Made by a program: the position numbers and the translations under genes | Shown: positions 29,356 to 37,656 of the stretch, one piece after another | Layout of the letters: each line of letters begins with the position of its first letter | Position numbering within the stretch: the first letter of the stretch is position 1 | Source: Plantactinospora soyae | Lineage (GTDB): Bacteria > Actinomycetota > Actinomycetes > Mycobacteriales > Micromonosporaceae | DNA: 64,000 nt | Direction: 5' to 3' | NCBI RefSeq assembly: GCF_014874095.1 | Contig: NZ_JADBEB010000001.1 | Span: forward strand, 9,548,001 to 9,612,000 | The notes under the pieces: model-generated | Told to the model about the DNA's origin: nothing | Database searches by the model: none | Seen by the model: only the letters and a program-made list of their open reading frames with translations

Positions 29356-30465
29356 TCACCCGGAGGCGGGGACGCCCCGGCGTTTTCGCAGGCCACCGAT
29401 GCGGAACTGCTGTACGAGAACGGCACCGATGATGATCGCGCCCTTGACGATGTTCTGGACTTCGATCTGGAGATTGAGCAGGATGAACAGGTTTGTGATC
29501 ATGGCGAACACCAGCACGCCCAGCAGGGTGCCGACGACGGTTCCGCGACCGCCGGCGAGGGAGGTACCGCCGATGATGGCCGCGGCGATCGCGTCCAGTT
29601 CGTAGAACTCGCCGTGGGTCGACGCTCCGGCGTTCGACAACGACACCAGGATGATCGCGGCGATCCCGCAGCAGAGCCCGGAGAGCGCGTAGAGCAGGAG
29701 TGTCTGGCGCTTGACGTTGATGCCGGCCAGACGCGCCGCCTCAAGGTTGCCCCCGACCGCGACCGTACGGCGCCCGAACGTCGTACGGTTGAGCACCACC
29801 CAGGCGATCGCCACGACGGCGGCGAAGACCAGCACCAGCAACGGGATCCCGAGAATGTCGGTCTCGGCCAGGCTGTTGATGCCGCTCACGCTGACGACCT
29901 GGGTCGTCTTGTTGGAGATCTGCGCGGCGAGTCCCCGGGCGGCGACCATCATCGCCAGGGTGGCGATGAAGGCGACCATCCGGCCGTACGCGATGAGCAG
30001 ACCGTTGACCACTCCCGCGAGGGTGCCCACCACGATCGCGGTGAACAGGATGCCCACCATGCCGAACTCCTGGGTGGCCACGGTGGTACACCAGACACTG
30101 GCCAGGCCCACCAACGAACCCACCGACAGGTCGATGCCACCACCGATGATCACGAAAGTCATCCCGATGGCGAGCACGCCGACCGCGGATGCCTGGGTGA
30201 GGATCGTCATGATGTTGCTGATCGCGCGGTCCGGGTCGAGGTAGACGTCGGGCCGGCGATAGGCGGCGAAAACGACAAGCGCCAGCAGGACCACGACGAG
30301 CGCACTGTTGCGTCGTACGGACTCGCCAGCACCGCCGCGCCACCAGCCACCGCTACCCCGCTGGTCCCCCGCGCTCAACCCGCCGTCGCCCGTGGCTGGG
30401 CCGACGTCCGGTTTTTTGTCGACCGGCGCCGCAGCCGTCTCACGCTCGGGAATTATTTCGGTCAC
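29356..30465 (-). CDS. Sugar ABC transporter permease (RbsC-like)
   Basis: 369 residues. A 50-residue hydrophilic N-terminus precedes 8-10 membrane helices. Family motifs are GMTFVIIGGGIDLSVGSLVGL, NGLLIAYGRMVAFIATLAMM, LNRTTFGRRTVAVGGN and IAAAIIGGTSLAGGRG, as in RbsC/XylH/MglC. The start is GTG at 30465, overlapping the ATPase stop (GTGA) with GAGGAGG upstream. A 188-base gap separates it from the binding-protein gene. Confidence 0.92.
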   Translation of the reverse strand: MTEIIPERETAAAPVDKKPDVGPATGDGGLSAGDQRGSGGWWRGGAGESVRRNSALVVVLLALVVFAAYRRPDVYLDPDRAISNIMTILTQASAVGVLAIGMTFVIIGGGIDLSVGSLVGLASVWCTTVATQEFGMVGILFTAIVVGTLAGVVNGLLIAYGRMVAFIATLAMMVAARGLAAQISNKTTQVVSVSGINSLAETDILGIPLLVLVFAAVVAIAWVVLNRTTFGRRTVAVGGNLEAARLAGINVKRQTLLLYALSGLCCGIAAIILVSLSNAGASTHGEFYELDAIAAAIIGGTSLAGGRGTVVGTLLGVLVFAMITNLFILLNLQIEVQNIVKGAIIIGAVLVQQFRIGGLRKRRGVPASG

Positions 30466-32144
30466 GCTGTCACCTCCTCGCTCAGGACATTTGTGGAATG
30501 CGGCCCGCCGTCAAGCAGCGACCCCGCCATGATGAGGTCGAGTACGGCATGCTCGTCGAGTTCCTCGGCCGGCGCCTCGCGAATGATCCGGCCCTCACGC
30601 ATGATCAGCACCCGGTGGGCGAGGCCGAGCACCTCCGGCACTTCGCTGGAGACCAGCAGTACGCCGACCCCACGGTCGGCGAGCTGCCGGATCACCCGGT
30701 ACAACTCGGCGCGTGCGCCGACGTCGACCCCCCGGGTGGGTTCGTCCAGGAGCAACAGTCTGGTGCCACCCAGCAACCACCTGCCGACCACCACTTTCTG
30801 TTGATTGCCACCCGACAGGGTGCCGACGGCACGGCCGACATCACGGGGACGCAACTGCAACTCGTCGGCCATCTCACTGCTCGCCGCCCGCTCCCGGTCG
30901 GCGCGGGTGAAGCCGCCCGCCGCGTAGTGGGCGAAGGTCGCCAGCGTCATGTTGCGGTAGATCGGCTCGCCGAGCAGGAGAGCCTGACTCTTCCGCTCTT
31001 CCGGGGCCATGCCCAGCCCGGCGCGGACCGCCGCGCCGACCCGTCCGGCCGGCAGCGGCTTGCCGTCGACCGACACCTGGCCGGCCTCGGGTCGCCGGGC
31101 ACCGTAGATCGTTTCCAGCAGCTCGGAGCGGCCCGACCCGACCAGCCCGGTGATGCCCACGATCTCTCCGGCGCGGACGTGCAGGGAGACGTCGGCGAAC
31201 TCCCCCGACCGGGACAGGCTCTTCACCTCGAGCAGCGGCACGCCCGTTGGCGTCGGCTGCTCGGCCCGGGGCGGGAAGACGTACTCGATGTTGCGCCCCG
31301 TCGTGTGCCTGACCAGTTCGCTGGTGGGTGTGGTGCGGGCGGGCAGGTTGACCGCAGCCGCCCGGCCGTCCTTGAGGACGGTCACCCGGTCGCCGATCTC
31401 GCGGATCTCCTCCATCCGGTGCGATATGTAGATCACCGCGATGCCCGCGCCGGTCAGCTGTCGAATCATCCGGAACAGGTTCTGCACTTCGTCGTGTGCC
31501 AGGACGGCGCTGGGCTCGTCCATGATGAGCATCCGGGTCTCGTGCGAGAGCGCCCGGCCCATGCTCGCGATCTGCTTCGCGGCCGCCGGCAGCGTCCGCA
31601 CCGGCCGCCCGGGCGGGATCTCCGGATGTCCGAGCCGGGCCAGCAGCTCCCGCGTCCGTTGGCGCATCAGTCCACGCTGGACGAAGCCGAACCGACGCGG
31701 CTCGTGGCCCAGGAAGATGTTCTCCGCCACCGTCATGTCCTCGACAAGGTCGAGTTCCTGGTAGATGGTGGCGATGCCGGCCTTCATGGCGGACTGGGGC
31801 GTATTGAAGGAGATGGGCGCACCGAGCCACTCGATCTCGCCGCTGTCCGGTTGGTGCGCGCCGGACAGCACCTTGATCAGAGTGGACTTGCCGGCGCCGT
31901 TCTGCCCGAGCAGGCAGTGCACCTCGCCCGCGCGGACCTCCAGGTCCACCCCGTCCAGTGCGCGTACTCCGGGGAAGGTCTTCACGACGTCGGTGAGCCG
32001 CAGGACGACTTCGCCCGGGACCACGTCGGCCGGCGCGGCGACCGGCGGCTGCCCCTCGGACCCGGCCCCGTTTGAGGAGCCGGCCGGGTCCGAGGATCCG
32101 GCGCCGTGCTGAGGTCCGGCCGCGCTGCCATGGGTGCTGGTCAC
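30462..32144 (-). CDS. Sugar ABC transporter ATP-binding protein (RbsA-like)
   Basis: 560 residues with two ATPase halves. The first has Walker A GQNGAGKST and Walker B LIMDEPSA, but an atypical signature (LPAAAKQ). The second has a degenerate P-loop (GLVGSGRSE, as usual in RbsA/MglA), signature LSGGNQQKVV and LLLDEPTRGVD. A 45-residue Ser/Gly/Ala-rich tail precedes the first half. The start is GTG at 32144, overlapping the ROK gene stop (GTGA), with GGGGAGG five bases upstream. It drives import through the permease encoded next. Confidence 0.92.
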   Translation of the reverse strand: MTSTHGSAAGPQHGAGSSDPAGSSNGAGSEGQPPVAAPADVVPGEVVLRLTDVVKTFPGVRALDGVDLEVRAGEVHCLLGQNGAGKSTLIKVLSGAHQPDSGEIEWLGAPISFNTPQSAMKAGIATIYQELDLVEDMTVAENIFLGHEPRRFGFVQRGLMRQRTRELLARLGHPEIPPGRPVRTLPAAAKQIASMGRALSHETRMLIMDEPSAVLAHDEVQNLFRMIRQLTGAGIAVIYISHRMEEIREIGDRVTVLKDGRAAAVNLPARTTPTSELVRHTTGRNIEYVFPPRAEQPTPTGVPLLEVKSLSRSGEFADVSLHVRAGEIVGITGLVGSGRSELLETIYGARRPEAGQVSVDGKPLPAGRVGAAVRAGLGMAPEERKSQALLLGEPIYRNMTLATFAHYAAGGFTRADRERAASSEMADELQLRPRDVGRAVGTLSGGNQQKVVVGRWLLGGTRLLLLDEPTRGVDVGARAELYRVIRQLADRGVGVLLVSSEVPEVLGLAHRVLIMREGRIIREAPAEELDEHAVLDLIMAGSLLDGGPHSTNVLSEEVTA

Positions 32145-33319
32145 GACGCCTCCCCGAATGCGACATCGCTGGCGAGTACGGCGGCGCCGGTGACCCCGGC
32201 CCGCGAGCCGAGCTCGGAGAGGACCACCGGCAGGTTGCCGGTGGCCAGCGGTAGTGACCGCCGGTAGACCACGCTTCGGATCTCCGCGAGCAGGATGTGG
32301 CCGAGCTGGGCCAGCCCGCCGCCGATGACGATCATCGACGGGTTGGCGAAGCTGACCAGGCCGGCGAGCACCCCACCGACCCGGCGCCCGCCGTCGCGGA
32401 TCAGCCGGATGCAGGTCACGTCCCCCTCGATCGCGCCCTCCGCGACGTCGAGCGCAGTGACCGCACCGGCGGCCGCGAGCCGTTCGCTGAGGGCGGGCGA
32501 GGCACCGGTACGGGCGGCAACGGTGGCGTCCTTGGCCACTGCGGCACCACTGAACAGGGCCTCCAGACAGCCGACGTTCCCACACGAGCACATCGGCCCG
32601 TGCGAGTCGACCTGGATGTGCCCGATGTCGCCGGCACACCCGTCGGTCCCCCGGTAGACCTCGCCGGCCAGGTAGATGCCGCACCCGATGCCTGTGCCGA
32701 TCTTGACGAACAGGAAGTCGTCCACCGAGTGCGCGACCCCGCCGTGCCGTTCGCCGATAGCCATGATGTTGACGTCGTTGTCCACGACGGCCGGACAACC
32801 GTGCTCGCGGGTCAGCAGCTCGCGGACCGGAAAGCGGTCCCAGCCGGGCATGATCGGCGGCGAGACCGGCACTCCGTCACGGAAGCTCACCGGGCCGGGT
32901 ACGCCGATGCCGACCGCGTGCAGGCGCTCGTACGCCCCGTCCGACCTCGCCTTGTGCAACAGCTCGTTGACCCGGTGCAGGATGACCTTCGGTCCGGAAC
33001 GGATGTCGGTGGCCTCGGCGTACGCGGCGACCGGTTCGAGCCGGCCGTTGACCACCTCGACGTCGATCGAGCTGGCGCCCAGATCGACCGCGGCGAACCG
33101 CAGGTCGGGGTTGAGTTCGACCAGTGTGGAGCGCCGGCCGCCCCGCGAAGCGGCCAGTCCCGCCTCGGCCACGTAGCCGAGGCTGACCAGCCGTTCCAGC
33201 TCTGCGAGCAGCCGTGGCCGGGGCATCTGCAACCGGTCGGCGAGCTCGGCACGGGAAACGGCGCCCTGGTCGCGCAGCAGCCGTAGCAACCGAAGGTGCA
33301 GCGGATCCGCCGTACGCAC
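32141..33319 (-). CDS. ROK-family transcriptional regulator
   Basis: 392 residues. An N-terminal winged helix-turn-helix (HLRLLRLLRDQGAVSRAELADRLQM) is followed by a ROK sugar-kinase-like domain: AAVDLGASSIDVEVV, GIGVPGPVSFRDG, VVDNDVNIMAIGE, GTGIGCGIYL, and an intact zinc motif CSCGNVGCLEAL. The start is GTG at 33319 with GGAGGTGAG about 8 bases upstream; the frame is open further up but through the promoter. It is the first gene of the transporter operon and probably represses it until the sugar binds. A strong palindrome 118-139 bases upstream is the likely operator. Confidence 0.88.
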   Translation of the reverse strand: MRTADPLHLRLLRLLRDQGAVSRAELADRLQMPRPRLLAELERLVSLGYVAEAGLAASRGGRRSTLVELNPDLRFAAVDLGASSIDVEVVNGRLEPVAAYAEATDIRSGPKVILHRVNELLHKARSDGAYERLHAVGIGVPGPVSFRDGVPVSPPIMPGWDRFPVRELLTREHGCPAVVDNDVNIMAIGERHGGVAHSVDDFLFVKIGTGIGCGIYLAGEVYRGTDGCAGDIGHIQVDSHGPMCSCGNVGCLEALFSGAAVAKDATVAARTGASPALSERLAAAGAVTALDVAEGAIEGDVTCIRLIRDGGRRVGGVLAGLVSFANPSMIVIGGGLAQLGHILLAEIRSVVYRRSLPLATGNLPVVLSELGSRAGVTGAAVLASDVAFGEAS

Positions 33320-33436
33320 TTGGGACTCACCTCCGTCGGCCTCACGTTCACGCCGACGCAATGCCCGCGTGTTATGTCCGACACAGTAAGAGCCTTCCGC
33401 ACCAGCTGTCCAGAGCTTCATCCGATCTGACGCTAA

Positions 33437-33458
33437 CTTTTGTCCGAACAGACAAAAG
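33437..33458. promoter_or_regulatory. Palindromic operator candidate for the ROK regulator
   Basis: CTTTTGTC (33437-33444), six bases CGAACA, then GACAAAAG (33451-33458): perfect 8-bp arms, A/T-rich at the outer ends. It lies upstream of the ROK operon start at 33319. Confidence 0.65.
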
Positions 33459-33646
33459 CTAGATGTGGATCTAGGAAAGCGACCAGTGACCCTCCGTGAA
33501 CGGGCCCTTCTTGACCTCGCGATCGCCCTGAGCTGGACGAACAGCTCCGGTATCGCCGGGTACCCGGGCAGTGGCGGCCCGGTCACGCGCCAACTCCAGG
33601 TCCCAATCGGCACCGGACGCGGTGGCGGATCTGACGGCCAGCCGAC

Positions 33647-33905: not shown

Positions 33906-34661
33906 TCACCGCCGGCTGGCGGCCGAACACCCGATGAGCTGGTCGTGGAGGCGGAGGATGTCGGCGCTCGGGACCACACCCAACTCCTCCGCCAGGTGCC
34001 GGCACAGTTGCCGGTACACGAGGATCGCGTCCACCTGTCTGCCGCTGCGGTGTAGTGCGAGCATGAGCTGGCCCTGAATCCGCTCCCTGGCGGGGAACTC
34101 CGCACACATCTTGATCAGGTCGCCGACGATCCGCTCGTGCCGACCGCACTCCAGTTCAAGGTCGAAGAATTCCTCGGACGCGGTGAGTTGCAGTTCGGTC
34201 AGCCAGGCGGCGCTGGCGGCGACGGCCTGACTGTCAAGGTCGTCGAGCACCGGCCCGCGCCACATACCCAGGGCCGACCGGTAGTGCGCGGTGGCCTCCT
34301 CGAAGCGGCCCGCCGCCGCGGACTCACGCGCCGCCGAGACCCGGCCGACGAAGACCCGGGCGTCCAGGTCCTCGGGTCGGACGTTGAGCTGGTAGCCGCT
34401 CGGTCTGGTCTCGAGCAGCGTGTCCGGCGCACCGGCTCGCACGAGACGACCGCGCAGCGCCGCTACGCAGTTCTGCACCTGTTTCCGGGCCGTCGACGGC
34501 GGATACACATCCCAGACAGCGGCGACCAGCCGGTCGATCGAACTCCTGCCCTCAACCGCCAGCAGGAGCGCACCGAGGATCTTCCGTTGTCTGTCCCCAG
34601 TTAGATCGACGCGTCGGCCTGCCACCGTGATCTCCAGCGGGCCGAGGATAGCGAACTCCAC
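33906..34661 (-). CDS. SARP-family transcriptional activator
   Basis: 251 residues. An OmpR-type winged helix (MEFAILGPLEITVAGRRVDL, RQRKILGALLLA, ALRGRLVRAG, GYQLNV) covers residues 1 to about 95. A bacterial transcriptional activation domain, alpha-helical TPR-like, covers about 96-245 (AAWLTELQLTASEEFFDLELECGRHE, HRSGRQVDAILVYRQLCRHLAEELGV). There is no ATPase or sensor domain, so it is a short DnrI/RedD-type SARP. The start is GTG at 34661. It faces the MauE-like cluster across about 208 bases containing direct repeats, the DNA form SARPs bind, so it probably activates that cluster. Confidence 0.9.
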   Translation of the reverse strand: MEFAILGPLEITVAGRRVDLTGDRQRKILGALLLAVEGRSSIDRLVAAVWDVYPPSTARKQVQNCVAALRGRLVRAGAPDTLLETRPSGYQLNVRPEDLDARVFVGRVSAARESAAAGRFEEATAHYRSALGMWRGPVLDDLDSQAVAASAAWLTELQLTASEEFFDLELECGRHERIVGDLIKMCAEFPARERIQGQLMLALHRSGRQVDAILVYRQLCRHLAEELGVVPSADILRLHDQLIGCSAASRR

Positions 34662-34742
34662 GAACCTGCCCCCTCCGGGGCCACAGTGGAGCCAGCTGAA
34701 CTTGCCAGGCCCCCCGTGACCACCCTCAGAAGCCGATCCTCC

Positions 34743-34797
34743 TCGATCGACTTGCTGCCGTCAACCTCGATCCACTTGCTGCCGTCAACCTCGATCG
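34743..34797. promoter_or_regulatory. Direct repeats with TCGATC heptamers, possible SARP binding site
   Basis: Two 24-bp units (34743-34766, 34767-34790) of the form TCGATCGACTTGCTGCCGTC... differ by one base, and a third TCGATCG starts at 34791. SARPs bind direct heptamer repeats (TCGAG-like) on one helix face upstream of the -10. The 24-bp spacing is slightly longer than the usual 22. Confidence 0.55.
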
Positions 34798-34799
34798 GC

Positions 34800-34821
34800 G
34801 ATGACAAAACGATGACAAAGC
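34800..34821. repeat. 11-bp direct repeat GATGACAAA(A/G)C
   Basis: GATGACAAAAC (34800-34810) is followed at once by GATGACAAAGC (34811-34821): one helical turn apart, in the leader just before the MauE-like gene. This could be part of the activator site or the -10 region. Confidence 0.5.
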
Positions 34822-34869
34822 CATGCAATGCTTGCCGGCGAATGTTGCTGGTACAGGAAGGACTCGCCA

Positions 34870-35397
34870 ATGGCGTCGATGCATGACGTGGTGTTGGTGG
34901 TGGTCAACAGCGTTGCGGCCGCCATCCTGGTGCAGGCTGCGCTCAGCAAGATCGCGGCGCCATCCCATCTACGCCAGGCTCTGTCCGAAGTCGACGTACC
35001 AGACGCTCTGACGACGACCAACGCCGTCCGGCTCTATGCCGGCATCGAGTGCCTCGCCGGCATAGCGTTGCTGTTCTCGGCGACCCGTTCGGTCGGCGCC
35101 GTTCTCGTCGCCGCGCTCGGCCTGGTGTTCATCGGCCTCGGTGGGCTGGGTATGGCGCGGGGCAGTGTCGAGCCGTGTGGGTGCTTCGGTAATCCGGCCG
35201 GACGACCGCTCGGCATCACCAACGTCGCGCTCGGTGCGGCGCTGGTGGCGGCGGGGGCGACGAACCTTTTGACGCGATCGCCGACCGGCTCGGCCGCCCT
35301 GCTCGGCACGGCGCTCGCCCTGCTCGTCCTGTGCCTGTACGTCAACCGGGCCTGGGCCTGGCCGTTGATCCGTCCACGGAGGGGAACCTCATTGTGA
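34870..35397 (+). CDS. MauE/DoxX-like membrane redox protein
   Basis: 175 residues, four membrane helices. MHDVVLVVVNSVAAAILVQAALSKIA is the characteristic first helix, then RLYAGIECLAGIALLFSA, and a Cys pair in VEPCGCFGNPAG between helices 3 and 4. MauE-type proteins help make disulfides in the small subunit of methylamine dehydrogenase, acting with MauD. I placed the start at the ATG 34870 with GGAAGG about 9 bases upstream; an ATG three codons later is possible. The GTGA overlap with the next gene shows coupling. This is the first gene of the island facing the SARP. Confidence 0.83.
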   Translation: MASMHDVVLVVVNSVAAAILVQAALSKIAAPSHLRQALSEVDVPDALTTTNAVRLYAGIECLAGIALLFSATRSVGAVLVAALGLVFIGLGGLGMARGSVEPCGCFGNPAGRPLGITNVALGAALVAAGATNLLTRSPTGSAALLGTALALLVLCLYVNRAWAWPLIRPRRGTSL

Positions 35398-35939
35398 TCC
35401 TTTTTCTGAGCATCGTTGTCCTCATCCTCGCCGGCGCCATCGTCATGGTGTTCGCGATGCTCGGGGAGTTGTCGTCCCGGGTACCCGCCTCCAACGAGGA
35501 GTCGCTGCGCCGGATCGAGGCGATCGACACGGCGCGGACCGGGCACAGTCCATCCCACTGGCCGGCCGAGCTCGCGCACGTCGCCGAGCAGGAGTACTCA
35601 CTCGTGCTCATCCTCAGTTCCACCTGCGTGAGCTGCGAGAAGATCGCCGGTCAGGTGTCGAAGATGCTCGACCGTGGCCCCGCGAACCTCGGCCTCGTCG
35701 TGGCGTGCCCGGCCCGGGAACGGGGTGAGCATTTCGCCGCCACGCACGGCATCGACCGCGGAACGCTCTACATCGACGAGGACGGCGCCTGGACCAAGGG
35801 CGAGTTCTCCGTTGAAACCAGCCCCGCCGCGCTGCTGTTCCGAAATGGACGGTTGCAGTCGGCGTTGCTGTTCTGGGATTTGCCCGCCGTACTGACTGCG
35901 GTGGGTTCGATGAGTGCAAACGACCAGGAGGTGGCGTGA
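35394..35939 (+). CDS. MauD-like membrane-anchored thioredoxin-fold protein
   Basis: 181 residues. The N-terminal membrane anchor reads MILFLSIVVLILAGAIVMVFAMLGEL. A short linker is followed by a thioredoxin-like domain facing outward with a CxxC site in LILSSTCVSCEKIA. It then shows FAATHGIDRGTLYIDEDG and a cis-Pro region in ETSPAALLFRNGRL. MauD proteins have this form and act with MauE on disulfides of exported proteins. The start is GTG at 35394 with GGAGGGG upstream, and the gene ends in a GTGA overlap with the Cys-rich gene. Confidence 0.8.
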   Translation: MILFLSIVVLILAGAIVMVFAMLGELSSRVPASNEESLRRIEAIDTARTGHSPSHWPAELAHVAEQEYSLVLILSSTCVSCEKIAGQVSKMLDRGPANLGLVVACPARERGEHFAATHGIDRGTLYIDEDGAWTKGEFSVETSPAALLFRNGRLQSALLFWDLPAVLTAVGSMSANDQEVA

Positions 35940-36256
35940 AAACCCAGGTGAGCAAGATGACGACCGGTCGGCGGAAGGTACTGGCCGGCGTCGGGGCGAG
36001 CGGGCTGGCCATGGCGGCCGCGGTGTTCGGCCGCAGCACCCCGGCACAGGCAGCGAACCACGCGTGCTGCACGCTGGTGTTCGTACCGCCGAACGTGTCC
36101 TACGCCAGCTGCACCAGTGGCCGGCACTACGTCTGGCAGTGCACGTTCGGCACGGTCGGACCGGTGTACCGGTACAACTGCTGCGAGAAGATGAACTCCG
36201 CGGGCAAGACCATCGGCTCCGCCACGCGGTACACCTGCATCTCGAACTGCGGCTAG
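35936..36256 (+). CDS. Tat-exported cysteine-rich small protein (possible amine-dehydrogenase light-chain relative)
   Basis: 106 residues. The Tat signal reads TTGRRKVLAGVGASGLAMAA and ends APAQA-like (STPAQA-ANHACC). The mature part is about 67 residues with eight Cys: two CC pairs (HACC, YNCCE) and four singles (YASC, VWQC, RYTC, SNCG). It is rich in Tyr but has one Trp only. The spacing Y-x-x-C...C...YxYNCC recalls the beta subunit of methylamine dehydrogenase, but a tryptophan-tryptophylquinone cofactor needs two Trp. The GTG start follows AGGAGGTGGC. Co-location with MauE and MauD proteins strongly suggests that these form its four disulfides. The function is unknown; it may be an enzyme subunit or a modified peptide. 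Confidence 0.75.
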   Translation: MKTQVSKMTTGRRKVLAGVGASGLAMAAAVFGRSTPAQAANHACCTLVFVPPNVSYASCTSGRHYVWQCTFGTVGPVYRYNCCEKMNSAGKTIGSATRYTCISNCG

Positions 36257-36260
36257 TTCA

Positions 36261-36320
36261 ATGACCGTCGTCGTCGGGATCGCGCTGCTCGGCGCGATCC
36301 TCCAGATGCAGAGCCCTTGA
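36261..36320 (+). CDS. Possible 19-residue hydrophobic peptide
   Basis: ATG at 36261, stop TGA at 36318: MTVVVGIALLGAILQMQSP. It begins four bases after the stop of the Cys-rich gene and ends ten bases before the next start. There is no clear ribosome binding site, so it would rely on reinitiation. It may be chance. Confidence 0.25.
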   Translation: MTVVVGIALLGAILQMQSP

Positions 36321-36329
36321 GGCACGTCC

Positions 36330-36908
36330 ATGGCCGGGGTCGCCGGCCCAATGCTGAGGCATGACCGGGCCGGTGCCATCCGGTTCCTGCTCGGACTCCT
36401 GATCGGCGGACTCGCCGGATCGGTCGTCCTGGCGGTGCCTTTCTACGTGCTGGGCCGGCTGACCGAGGCGCTGCTGACGGAGCAGGTGCGGTGGGTGGTC
36501 TTCGGGGTGGTCGTCGTCGTAGCCGGCGTCGTCGACCTGACGTTGCGCACGCCGCACGTTCAACGCCAGGTGCCACAACGTCTGGTACGGACCTTGAAGC
36601 CGGGCCCGCTCGGCCTGGTCTGGGGCGTTGACCTCGCGATGCTGTTCACCACGCAGAAGACGACGTCGCTGCTCTGGGTGGCGTTGGCGGGGCTGGTACT
36701 CGTCGCGCCGGGGCTCGCACCAGCCCTCCTCGCCGCGTCGTGGGCGGTGGCATGGCTGGCGATGGTCTATCTGAGCGTACGCAGACCGACACTGATTCCG
36801 ATCGGTGAGGAGCGGTTGACATGGCAGGACCTGGTAAAGATTCTCCGGCGCGTGTCCGGAACGATCTTGCTGGGGACGGCGGTGATCGGAGCGTTCATGC
36901 TGAGCTGA
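36330..36908 (+). CDS. Membrane protein of the SARP/Mau-like island
   Basis: 192 residues with about six hydrophobic segments (AIRFLLGLLIGGLAGSVVLA, WVVFGVVVVVAGVVDL, LLWVALAGLVLVAPGL, GTILLGTAVIGAFML). GAGG lies 7 bases before the ATG. A cytosolic loop VDLAMLFTTQKTTSL lies in the middle. The layout resembles CcdA/DsbD-type or methylamine-utilisation membrane proteins in size, but it lacks the Cys pair needed for CcdA electron transfer, so I do not assign a function. Confidence 0.7.
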   Translation: MAGVAGPMLRHDRAGAIRFLLGLLIGGLAGSVVLAVPFYVLGRLTEALLTEQVRWVVFGVVVVVAGVVDLTLRTPHVQRQVPQRLVRTLKPGPLGLVWGVDLAMLFTTQKTTSLLWVALAGLVLVAPGLAPALLAASWAVAWLAMVYLSVRRPTLIPIGEERLTWQDLVKILRRVSGTILLGTAVIGAFMLS

Positions 36909-37300
36909 ACCCCGATCGCGTCCTCACGCCCGACCCGACCGGCGGTCAGGTCATCATCACCCGCTTCGAGTGCCCGAACCTGCGGGTACTGCTGTACCTG
37001 CTGGCGCTGCACGTCCGGATCAAGCGGGACGTACAGCGCAACGTACCGGGGTTGATCGCGAGCCGTGTCGTCGTGCACTGGCGGCAGCGGACGATGCTCA
37101 GCATCACGCTGTGGCCGGATCTCGAAAGCGTCTACGACATGGGCTCGGTGCCGCGACACGTGAGCGGATCCCGGCTCCCGGGGCGACTGGGTGTCGCGAC
37201 GAGCAGCGGAGTCTTCACCTTCACCGGCGACTGGCGGCGGGTGATGTTCGGATCGCCGGCCAAGGCACGGTCACCGCTGCGGCCCCTGAAAACACAATGA
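36821..37300 (+). CDS. Hypothetical protein, ABM/DUF3291-like alpha/beta
   Basis: 159 residues. GGTGAGGAGC stands 7 bases before the ATG at 36821, an excellent site, so the gene begins 88 bases inside the membrane-protein gene in another frame. From about residue 43 it reads GGQVIITRFECPNLRVLLYL, IASRVVVHWRQRTMLSITLWPDLESVYDMG, GVFTFTGDWRRVMF, a ferredoxin-like alpha/beta pattern seen in antibiotic-monooxygenase and DUF3291-type proteins. I see no catalytic signature. The N-terminal 40 residues are polar and probably disordered. Confidence 0.65.
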   Translation: MAGPGKDSPARVRNDLAGDGGDRSVHAELNPDRVLTPDPTGGQVIITRFECPNLRVLLYLLALHVRIKRDVQRNVPGLIASRVVVHWRQRTMLSITLWPDLESVYDMGSVPRHVSGSRLPGRLGVATSSGVFTFTGDWRRVMFGSPAKARSPLRPLKTQ

Positions 37301-37322
37301 CAAGCAAGTCGAAGGGAGCATC

Positions 37323-37601
37323 ATGGCAATACCAACCGATCGCGGTCACGTAATCCTGACGGAGGACGCCGCGGGCCAGACCACCGTCATGGTCGGTACC
37401 GGCTTGACCGACGGCGCGGTGCAGAACGTCTACGCCAAGCACGTCGGGGCGGCGGAGGTCAAGGTGCACCCCGGGGTGCGCCTGGCCAACGGTAGCCACG
37501 GCCGGCACAGCCTCGATGTCGTCGAGGTCTACGTCGGTGGCGACGACGTCGTCAACATCCGCCGGCTCGAAGCGAGCGGCGATCTGCGGGCGCAGGCGTA
37601 G
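37323..37601 (+). CDS. Hypothetical small protein, 92 aa
   Basis: AAGGGAGC lies just before the ATG at 37323. It is beta-rich with short repeats of Val/Gly/Asp (GHVILTEDAAGQTTVMVGTG, LDVVEVYVGGDDVVNIRRLE) and has no signal peptide, membrane segment or Cys. It is the last gene of the island, 22 bases after the previous one and followed by a strong hairpin. I do not recognise the family. Confidence 0.7.
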   Translation: MAIPTDRGHVILTEDAAGQTTVMVGTGLTDGAVQNVYAKHVGAAEVKVHPGVRLANGSHGRHSLDVVEVYVGGDDVVNIRRLEASGDLRAQA

Positions 37602-37609
37602 GTAATCGG

Positions 37610-37656
37610 GCCACAGCCCGGTCGGTGGTCCTGGTGATCAGCGACCGGGCTGTGGC
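37610..37656. terminator. Bidirectional terminator, 15-bp stem
   Basis: GCCACAGCCCGGTCG (37610-37624) pairs perfectly with CGACCGGGCTGTGGC (37642-37656), with a 17-base loop. It separates the plus-strand island from the minus-strand ABC exporter genes. Confidence 0.85.

Follow-up and report, generated by a model that had tools for sequence, protein, structure and literature searches.

What do relatives of the methylamine dehydrogenase maturation proteins MauE and MauD act on in a genome in which the dehydrogenase itself is not recognised? This question is raised by a six-gene plus-strand unit (34870-37601) of Plantactinospora soyae, which lies opposite a divergent SARP gene. The window, i. 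e. the whole stretch analysed, comprises 64,000 nucleotides (contig NZ_JADBEB010000001.1, positions 9,548,001-9,612,000), and the coordinates below count within it. From sequence comparison we put the probability at roughly 0.7 that this cassette makes one small secreted protein, termed the client here, and carries its dedicated folding machinery. The mature client would most likely be a specialised secreted product, serving in antagonism or signalling, and not a dehydrogenase subunit. The seven open reading frames (ORFs) placed here by a first-pass annotation were confirmed, as were the CGCF motif of the MauE-like protein, the CxxC motif of the MauD-like protein, the eight Cys of the client, and the GTGA overlaps that link MauE to MauD (35394) and MauD to the client (35936). 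The features are:

33906..34661, minus strand: short SARP-type regulator with a BTAD domain, divergent from the cassette
34870..35397, plus strand: MauE-family membrane protein with a PCGCFG motif
35394..35939, plus strand: MauD-like thioredoxin-like protein with an N-terminal hydrophobic segment and CxxC (C78/C81), assigned by family profile against authentic MauD
35936..36256, plus strand: client, with a signal of the twin-arginine translocation (Tat) type (residues 1-39) and a mature part of 67 residues, eight of them Cys, from sequence, alignment and an AlphaFold2 model
36330..36908, plus strand: MauF-like membrane protein, assigned by profile against three authentic MauF sequences
36821..37300, plus strand: protein with a predicted ABM fold (dimeric alpha+beta barrel type), start codon uncertain
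37323..37601, plus strand: 92-residue protein with no family assigned, placed from the gene order table of the loci
37610..37656, plus strand: strong 3' hairpin that lacks a T-tract, probably a terminator (arms 37610-37630 and 37636-37656)

The window MauE protein matched PF07291 at 4.9e-18, above the cut-off, and its family profile aligned with seven authentic MauE sequences at E 4.3e-16 (hhalign). The MauD-like protein stayed below threshold in Pfam and NCBIfam; its family profile aligned with seven authentic MauD sequences at E 3e-8 (hhalign), and both Cys of its C78-V-S-C81 motif are invariant in the ten aligned members. The product of 36330 had been described as a membrane protein, which it is, but its relation to MauF had been overlooked. 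Profiles of this family matched authentic MauF (three sequences, from Paracoccus denitrificans, Methylobacterium sp. DM1 and Indioceanicola profundi) with E values of 1.5e-5 for the core set, 1.4e-7 for a distant set and 2.2e-8 for all members; in control runs, with authentic MauE and MauD sequences and the MauE set of the cassettes as targets, E was 0.04-0.5. On this profile evidence the protein is a MauF relative.

The cassette resembles the mau cluster of P. denitrificans in having relatives of MauE, MauD and MauF and a Tat-type Cys-rich small protein right after MauD; in P. denitrificans the genes run F, B, E, D, A, of which E-D-A is common to the cassette. It differs from the mau cluster in two additional genes, those for the ABM-fold and the 92-residue protein, and in the lack of any match to MauB, a PF02975 light chain or MauG in the window's genome. 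The heavy chain profile PF06433 (MauB) had 0 matches in this genome and scored 701.7 bits in the P. denitrificans positive control; the light chain profile PF02975 (MauA) had no match here and matched positive controls in two plasmids; the MauG-type profile PF03150 had 0 matches here and matched in 2 of 14 control genomes. The first-pass annotation, which had seen no large dehydrogenase subunit or MauG, thus agrees with these negative searches, and no full mau cluster elsewhere in the genome accounts for the genes.

The client has 106 residues, with RR at 12-13 and AQA at 37-39; the 67 residues thereafter contain eight Cys (positions 44, 45, 59, 69, 82, 83, 101 and 105) and a CCE motif. R12 and R13 are invariant in 11 of 11 aligned clients, and conservation is higher in the signal region than in the mature part (mean identity 0.61 versus 0.44 in nine sequences). 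In 26 aligned clients C44, C45, L47, C59, W67, C69 and C83 are invariant, and the W-x-C motif is present in all 26. W67 is the sole Trp in the mature part of the window client, other clients having one to three. All 24 distinct window-type clients have an even number of mature Cys (totals 8, 10, 12 and 14), which argues for complete disulfide pairing in this type; for comparison, the number was even in 10 of 12 light-chain sequences. The AlphaFold2 model of residues 39-106 had a mean predicted local distance difference test score (pLDDT) of 88.5 and a predicted template modelling score (pTM) of 0.73, and a comparison of the model with solved structures found no clear relative.

With 67 residues the mature client is shorter than the mau light chain (131 residues), and there is no detectable homology between them. 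When the client was tried as a light-chain homologue, column shuffles reached the real score in 44 of 99 cases for the window type, in 5 of 99 for the second client type described below and in 25 of 99 for both. MauE/MauD-type proteins thus accompany a different small Cys-rich protein with an export signal, as had been proposed.

Searching 61 related genomes at the protein level yielded eight client matches in seven genomes, the window included, and a contig scan found the client in Micromonospora qiuiae, Dactylosporangium sp. AC04546 and Virgisporangium aurantiacum; these three recur among the later loci and were counted once. Further core loci came from a MauF-like search of 350 Micromonosporaceae genomes and from one client match in another family. 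The six genes recur together as one block: MauE, MauD, client, MauF-like, ABM-fold and 92-residue genes are complete in 20 of the 21 core loci fetched, plus the window, and the remaining locus (L015), a fragment broken by a run of N, holds the client, the 92-residue gene and partial MauF-like and MauE genes. Gene order is rearranged in L017, L060, L062 and L066; in these four and in L015 the 92-residue gene adjoins the client. Two clients each are present in L063 and L065, and two MauD-like genes each in L060, L062 and L066.

The MauF-like protein and the client co-occur. The MauF-like profile matched 17 of the 350 Micromonosporaceae genomes at E <= 1e-60, and a mature-client profile, run on an equal-sized draw in which the genome handles coincide, matched the same 17 and two more (G581 and G650) at E < 1e-11. 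Strong matches to both proteins thus occur in 17 of 350 genomes, and in G581 and G650 a distant MauF-like gene adjoins the client. MauE/MauD/MauF-type genes stand beside the client at all 26 client places of the mature-client profile search, many of which supplied rows of the profile and hence match by construction. Four weaker new places outside the alignment (L156, L157, L160, L161) all lie in a row of MauE, MauD, client and MauF-like genes. Homologues of the Cys-rich protein are therefore not found mostly apart from MauD/MauE neighbours. G458 has a MauF-like gene without a window-type client; a different Cys-rich Tat-type ORF is present there.

A broader MauF-like profile found new places in other actinomycete families, of which 11 of 16 were fetched. 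The surroundings of distant MauF-like genes were scanned blindly for ORFs with a twin-arginine, a hydrophobic stretch, an AxA motif and a tail of 40-190 residues with at least six Cys. For 17 of the 19 genes such an ORF was found at most 1.5 kb away and in the same orientation, and likewise for 13 of the 15 genes that were found by MauF profile alone. In the whole window the scan matched a single reading frame, that of the client. The background was three matches in 262,790 flanking bases of 20 core loci; the script counted one, and the count of three includes two opposite-strand matches close to cassettes.

The distant clients are of several types, which by eye have Cys and Trp patterns in common and little else; that like modules adjoin several other Tat-type Cys-rich families had escaped the first-pass annotation. 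None of the five clients scanned matched an NCBIfam product model, and the clients scanned matched none of the named product families in Pfam or NCBIfam. A second client type (L067, L068, L070, L156, L157, L160, L161) has an SPCC start, WxC in the middle and then C-x-E-C. Two further groups beside MauF-like genes, both Tat-type and Cys-rich, have the patterns NAW.W...RCSD and GWLW...CG.C...RCHDGW (loci L115, L118, L119, L122-L124, L069 and L116, L120, L121); in these the Cys count was even in 11 of 11. In the window's own genome a very Cys-rich ORF of 143 codons lies near a MauE paralogue (L125, 5887-6315, minus strand); no MauF-like or MauD-like match was found in that stretch.

On the Thermomicrobium roseum plasmid NC_011961.1, five PF02975 matches adjoin MauE-, MauD- and MauF-like genes, and the MauF-like family is thereby linked to true light-chain relatives; no PF06433 match was found on this plasmid. 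There (L073, L089; about 478000-493000) the light-chain-like proteins, some or all of which are unannotated, are interleaved with proteins of about 400 residues annotated as hypothetical, and the MauE/MauD/MauF-like genes lie at one end.

That MauE and MauD genes stand beside Cys-rich precursors is already in print: decRiPPter yielded candidate families of ribosomally synthesised and post-translationally modified peptides in Streptomyces with mauE, one also with mauD, whose precursors have at least eight Cys, and its authors proposed that the mauE/mauD homologues help to modify the precursors (PMC7794033). The cassette has in common with these families the MauE/MauD-type genes beside a short Cys-rich precursor, and the earlier suggestion of a modified-peptide system resembles this published idea. 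In contrast, the terms MauF and 'Tat signal' each occur 0 times in the available text of PMC7794033. The present analysis adds MauF, the Tat-type export signal, the Cys parity, a specific six-gene cassette that includes an ABM-fold protein, and the tests by presence/absence and by blind scan.

The remaining two cassette proteins have no evident signal. The ABM-like protein has the ABM superfamily fold on its predicted model; the best Foldseek match was SnoaB, a cofactor-independent oxygenase, and ActVA-Orf6 was also among the best. SnoaB and ActVA-Orf6 form quinones. They have 14-18% identity to the ABM-like protein and a different operon context, and the comparison is one of fold. Pfam support was weak (PF13826 at 0.014 in 3 of 21 members, PF03992 at 0.067 in 1 of 21). 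As listed, the ORF shares 88 bases (36821-36908) with the MauF-like gene, and conservation starts near residue 41, the first 40 residues being poorly conserved; hence the start codon is uncertain. The 92-residue protein has no convincing Pfam or PDB relative.

A possible course of events is as follows. The precursor would be exported by Tat and, judging from the RR and AQA of its signal, cleaved after residue 39. Outside the membrane, the MauD-like thioredoxin would oxidise and sort the eight Cys into four disulfides, with MauE serving the MauD-like protein and the MauF-like protein as the third membrane component; this is suggested by the relationship of these proteins to the methylamine dehydrogenase maturation proteins. 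In the weakest step, the ABM-fold and 92-residue proteins would act on the precursor before export, the former possibly as an oxygenase or a partner, the latter as a chaperone or partner, since its gene adjoins that of the client in rearranged loci. That the product is a specialised one is suggested by its patchy distribution, the duplication of clients and the proximity of SARP genes.

The latter is not general. The BTAD domain of the window SARP is secure (PF03704 1e-40, above the cut-off), and a match to Trans_reg_C, the N-terminal winged-helix DNA-binding domain, scored 19.3 bits (0.0012), below the cut-off of 26.2. A SARP-like ORF (phmmer E <= 1e-5) lay within the fetched stretch in just 8 of the 20 complete loci and in none of the other 12, and therefore SARP control, which had been seen as the defining feature of the locus, does not characterise the cassette. 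Upstream of the SARP gene (30462-33613), inspection by eye points to a ROK-type repressor and ABC genes of the sugar-importer type. Relatives of these adjoin the cassette in L056, L058, L060 and L061, and the insertion site may thus be shared. At the 3' end, the predicted terminator is borne out as a very stable hairpin (-49.3 kcal/mol, z -7.0; none of 200 shuffles was equally stable), but it has no T-tract and the terminator scan called nothing there; it is a probable terminator.

Several observations weigh against a client with dedicated folding machinery, or narrow what it explains. Since the loci are mutually related, their counts lack independence. Of the 19 scanned MauF-like genes, four were originally found via their client, and adding L051, where a client is present, and L071/L053, where none was found and which contains runs of N, to the genes found by profile gives 14 of 17. 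The window client scored 0.71 with the Tat model TIGR01409, below the cut-off, whereas the related L067 client exceeds it. Since light-chain homology is unsupported, the analogy with methylamine dehydrogenase rests on gene context. One of ten MauF-like members matched PF11139 (0.0018), and the family may thus belong to a wider transporter-like group. In all 7 sequences of the second client type the Cys count is odd (11 or 13), though individual Cys vary, so complete pairing is not general; in this type one Cys seems to be kept unpaired or cross-linked. Among the recurrent neighbours we recognised no gene dedicated to immunity or proteolysis, and ABC-type ATPase ORFs, unsorted by subtype, recur near the cassette in 9 of 16 stretches.

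In one concrete form, such a specialised product could be an antimicrobial of the bacteriocin kind, stabilised by its disulfides, and the 92-residue protein could confer immunity or act as a chaperone. We regard this as possible but tentative. The product is small and Cys-framed with variable loops, its export is predicted, and the duplicated clients of L063 and L065, the restriction to 17 of 350 genomes and the SARP-like neighbours in 8 of 20 complete loci would fit. However, inspection by eye showed no membrane segment in the 92-residue protein, the recurrent neighbours include no recognised dedicated exporter or protease (the ABC-type ATPases being unsorted), and Leu, Trp and Glu positions are conserved beyond the needs of a pure scaffold.

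These conserved positions include the Trp on which a second alternative is built, namely that the ABM-fold protein oxygenates the invariant client Trp to give a free-standing, tryptophylquinone-type redox carrier without MauG. Besides the Mau-type context, the W-x-C motif in 26 of 26 clients and the Foldseek matches to SnoaB and ActVA-Orf6 speak for it, and one hhalign run set W67 on a light-chain Trp, which we take to be the quinone Trp. Yet this alignment was not significant (E 0.035; column shuffles) and is a lead only. Moreover, W67 is the sole conserved Trp and so lacks a conserved Trp partner, the window type, with its even number of Cys, has none to spare, and ABM folds serve many functions, the likeness to SnoaB and ActVA-Orf6 being at fold level only. 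We consider this reading unlikely, and quite improbable in its specific form, in which a cofactor-free ABM oxygenase would oxidise the Trp in the cytoplasm before Tat export and the Mau-type trio would fold the protein outside, to yield a secreted tryptophan-quinone protein without MauG or a catalytic partner. If true, the ABM-fold route would be a new way to a protein-derived quinone.

It is very doubtful that the client serves as small subunit in an unrecognised dehydrogenase, the large subunit being encoded at another place: the Mau-type context and the Thermomicrobium PF02975 copies among hypothetical proteins of about 400 residues would agree with it, but PF06433 had no match in the window's genome while its positive control matched, and no look-alike of a large secreted subunit was seen by eye among the recurrent neighbours.

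We therefore return to the secreted client with its own folding machinery. With few exceptions, a MauF-like gene in actinomycetes has a gene for a Tat-type Cys-rich protein next to it. Since MauF-like genes adjoin Tat-type Cys-rich ORFs as well as the Thermomicrobium light-chain relatives, these gene neighbourhoods suggest that MauE, MauD and MauF together form a folding kit that is portable between exported disulfide-rich proteins, with methylamine dehydrogenase as just one of its several clients. To our knowledge, MauF has no clear role in methylamine dehydrogenase assembly, and the cassette offers a small system for a direct genetic test of it. The neighbourhood of MauF-like genes also provides a simple rule by which new families of secreted disulfide-rich peptides may be found.

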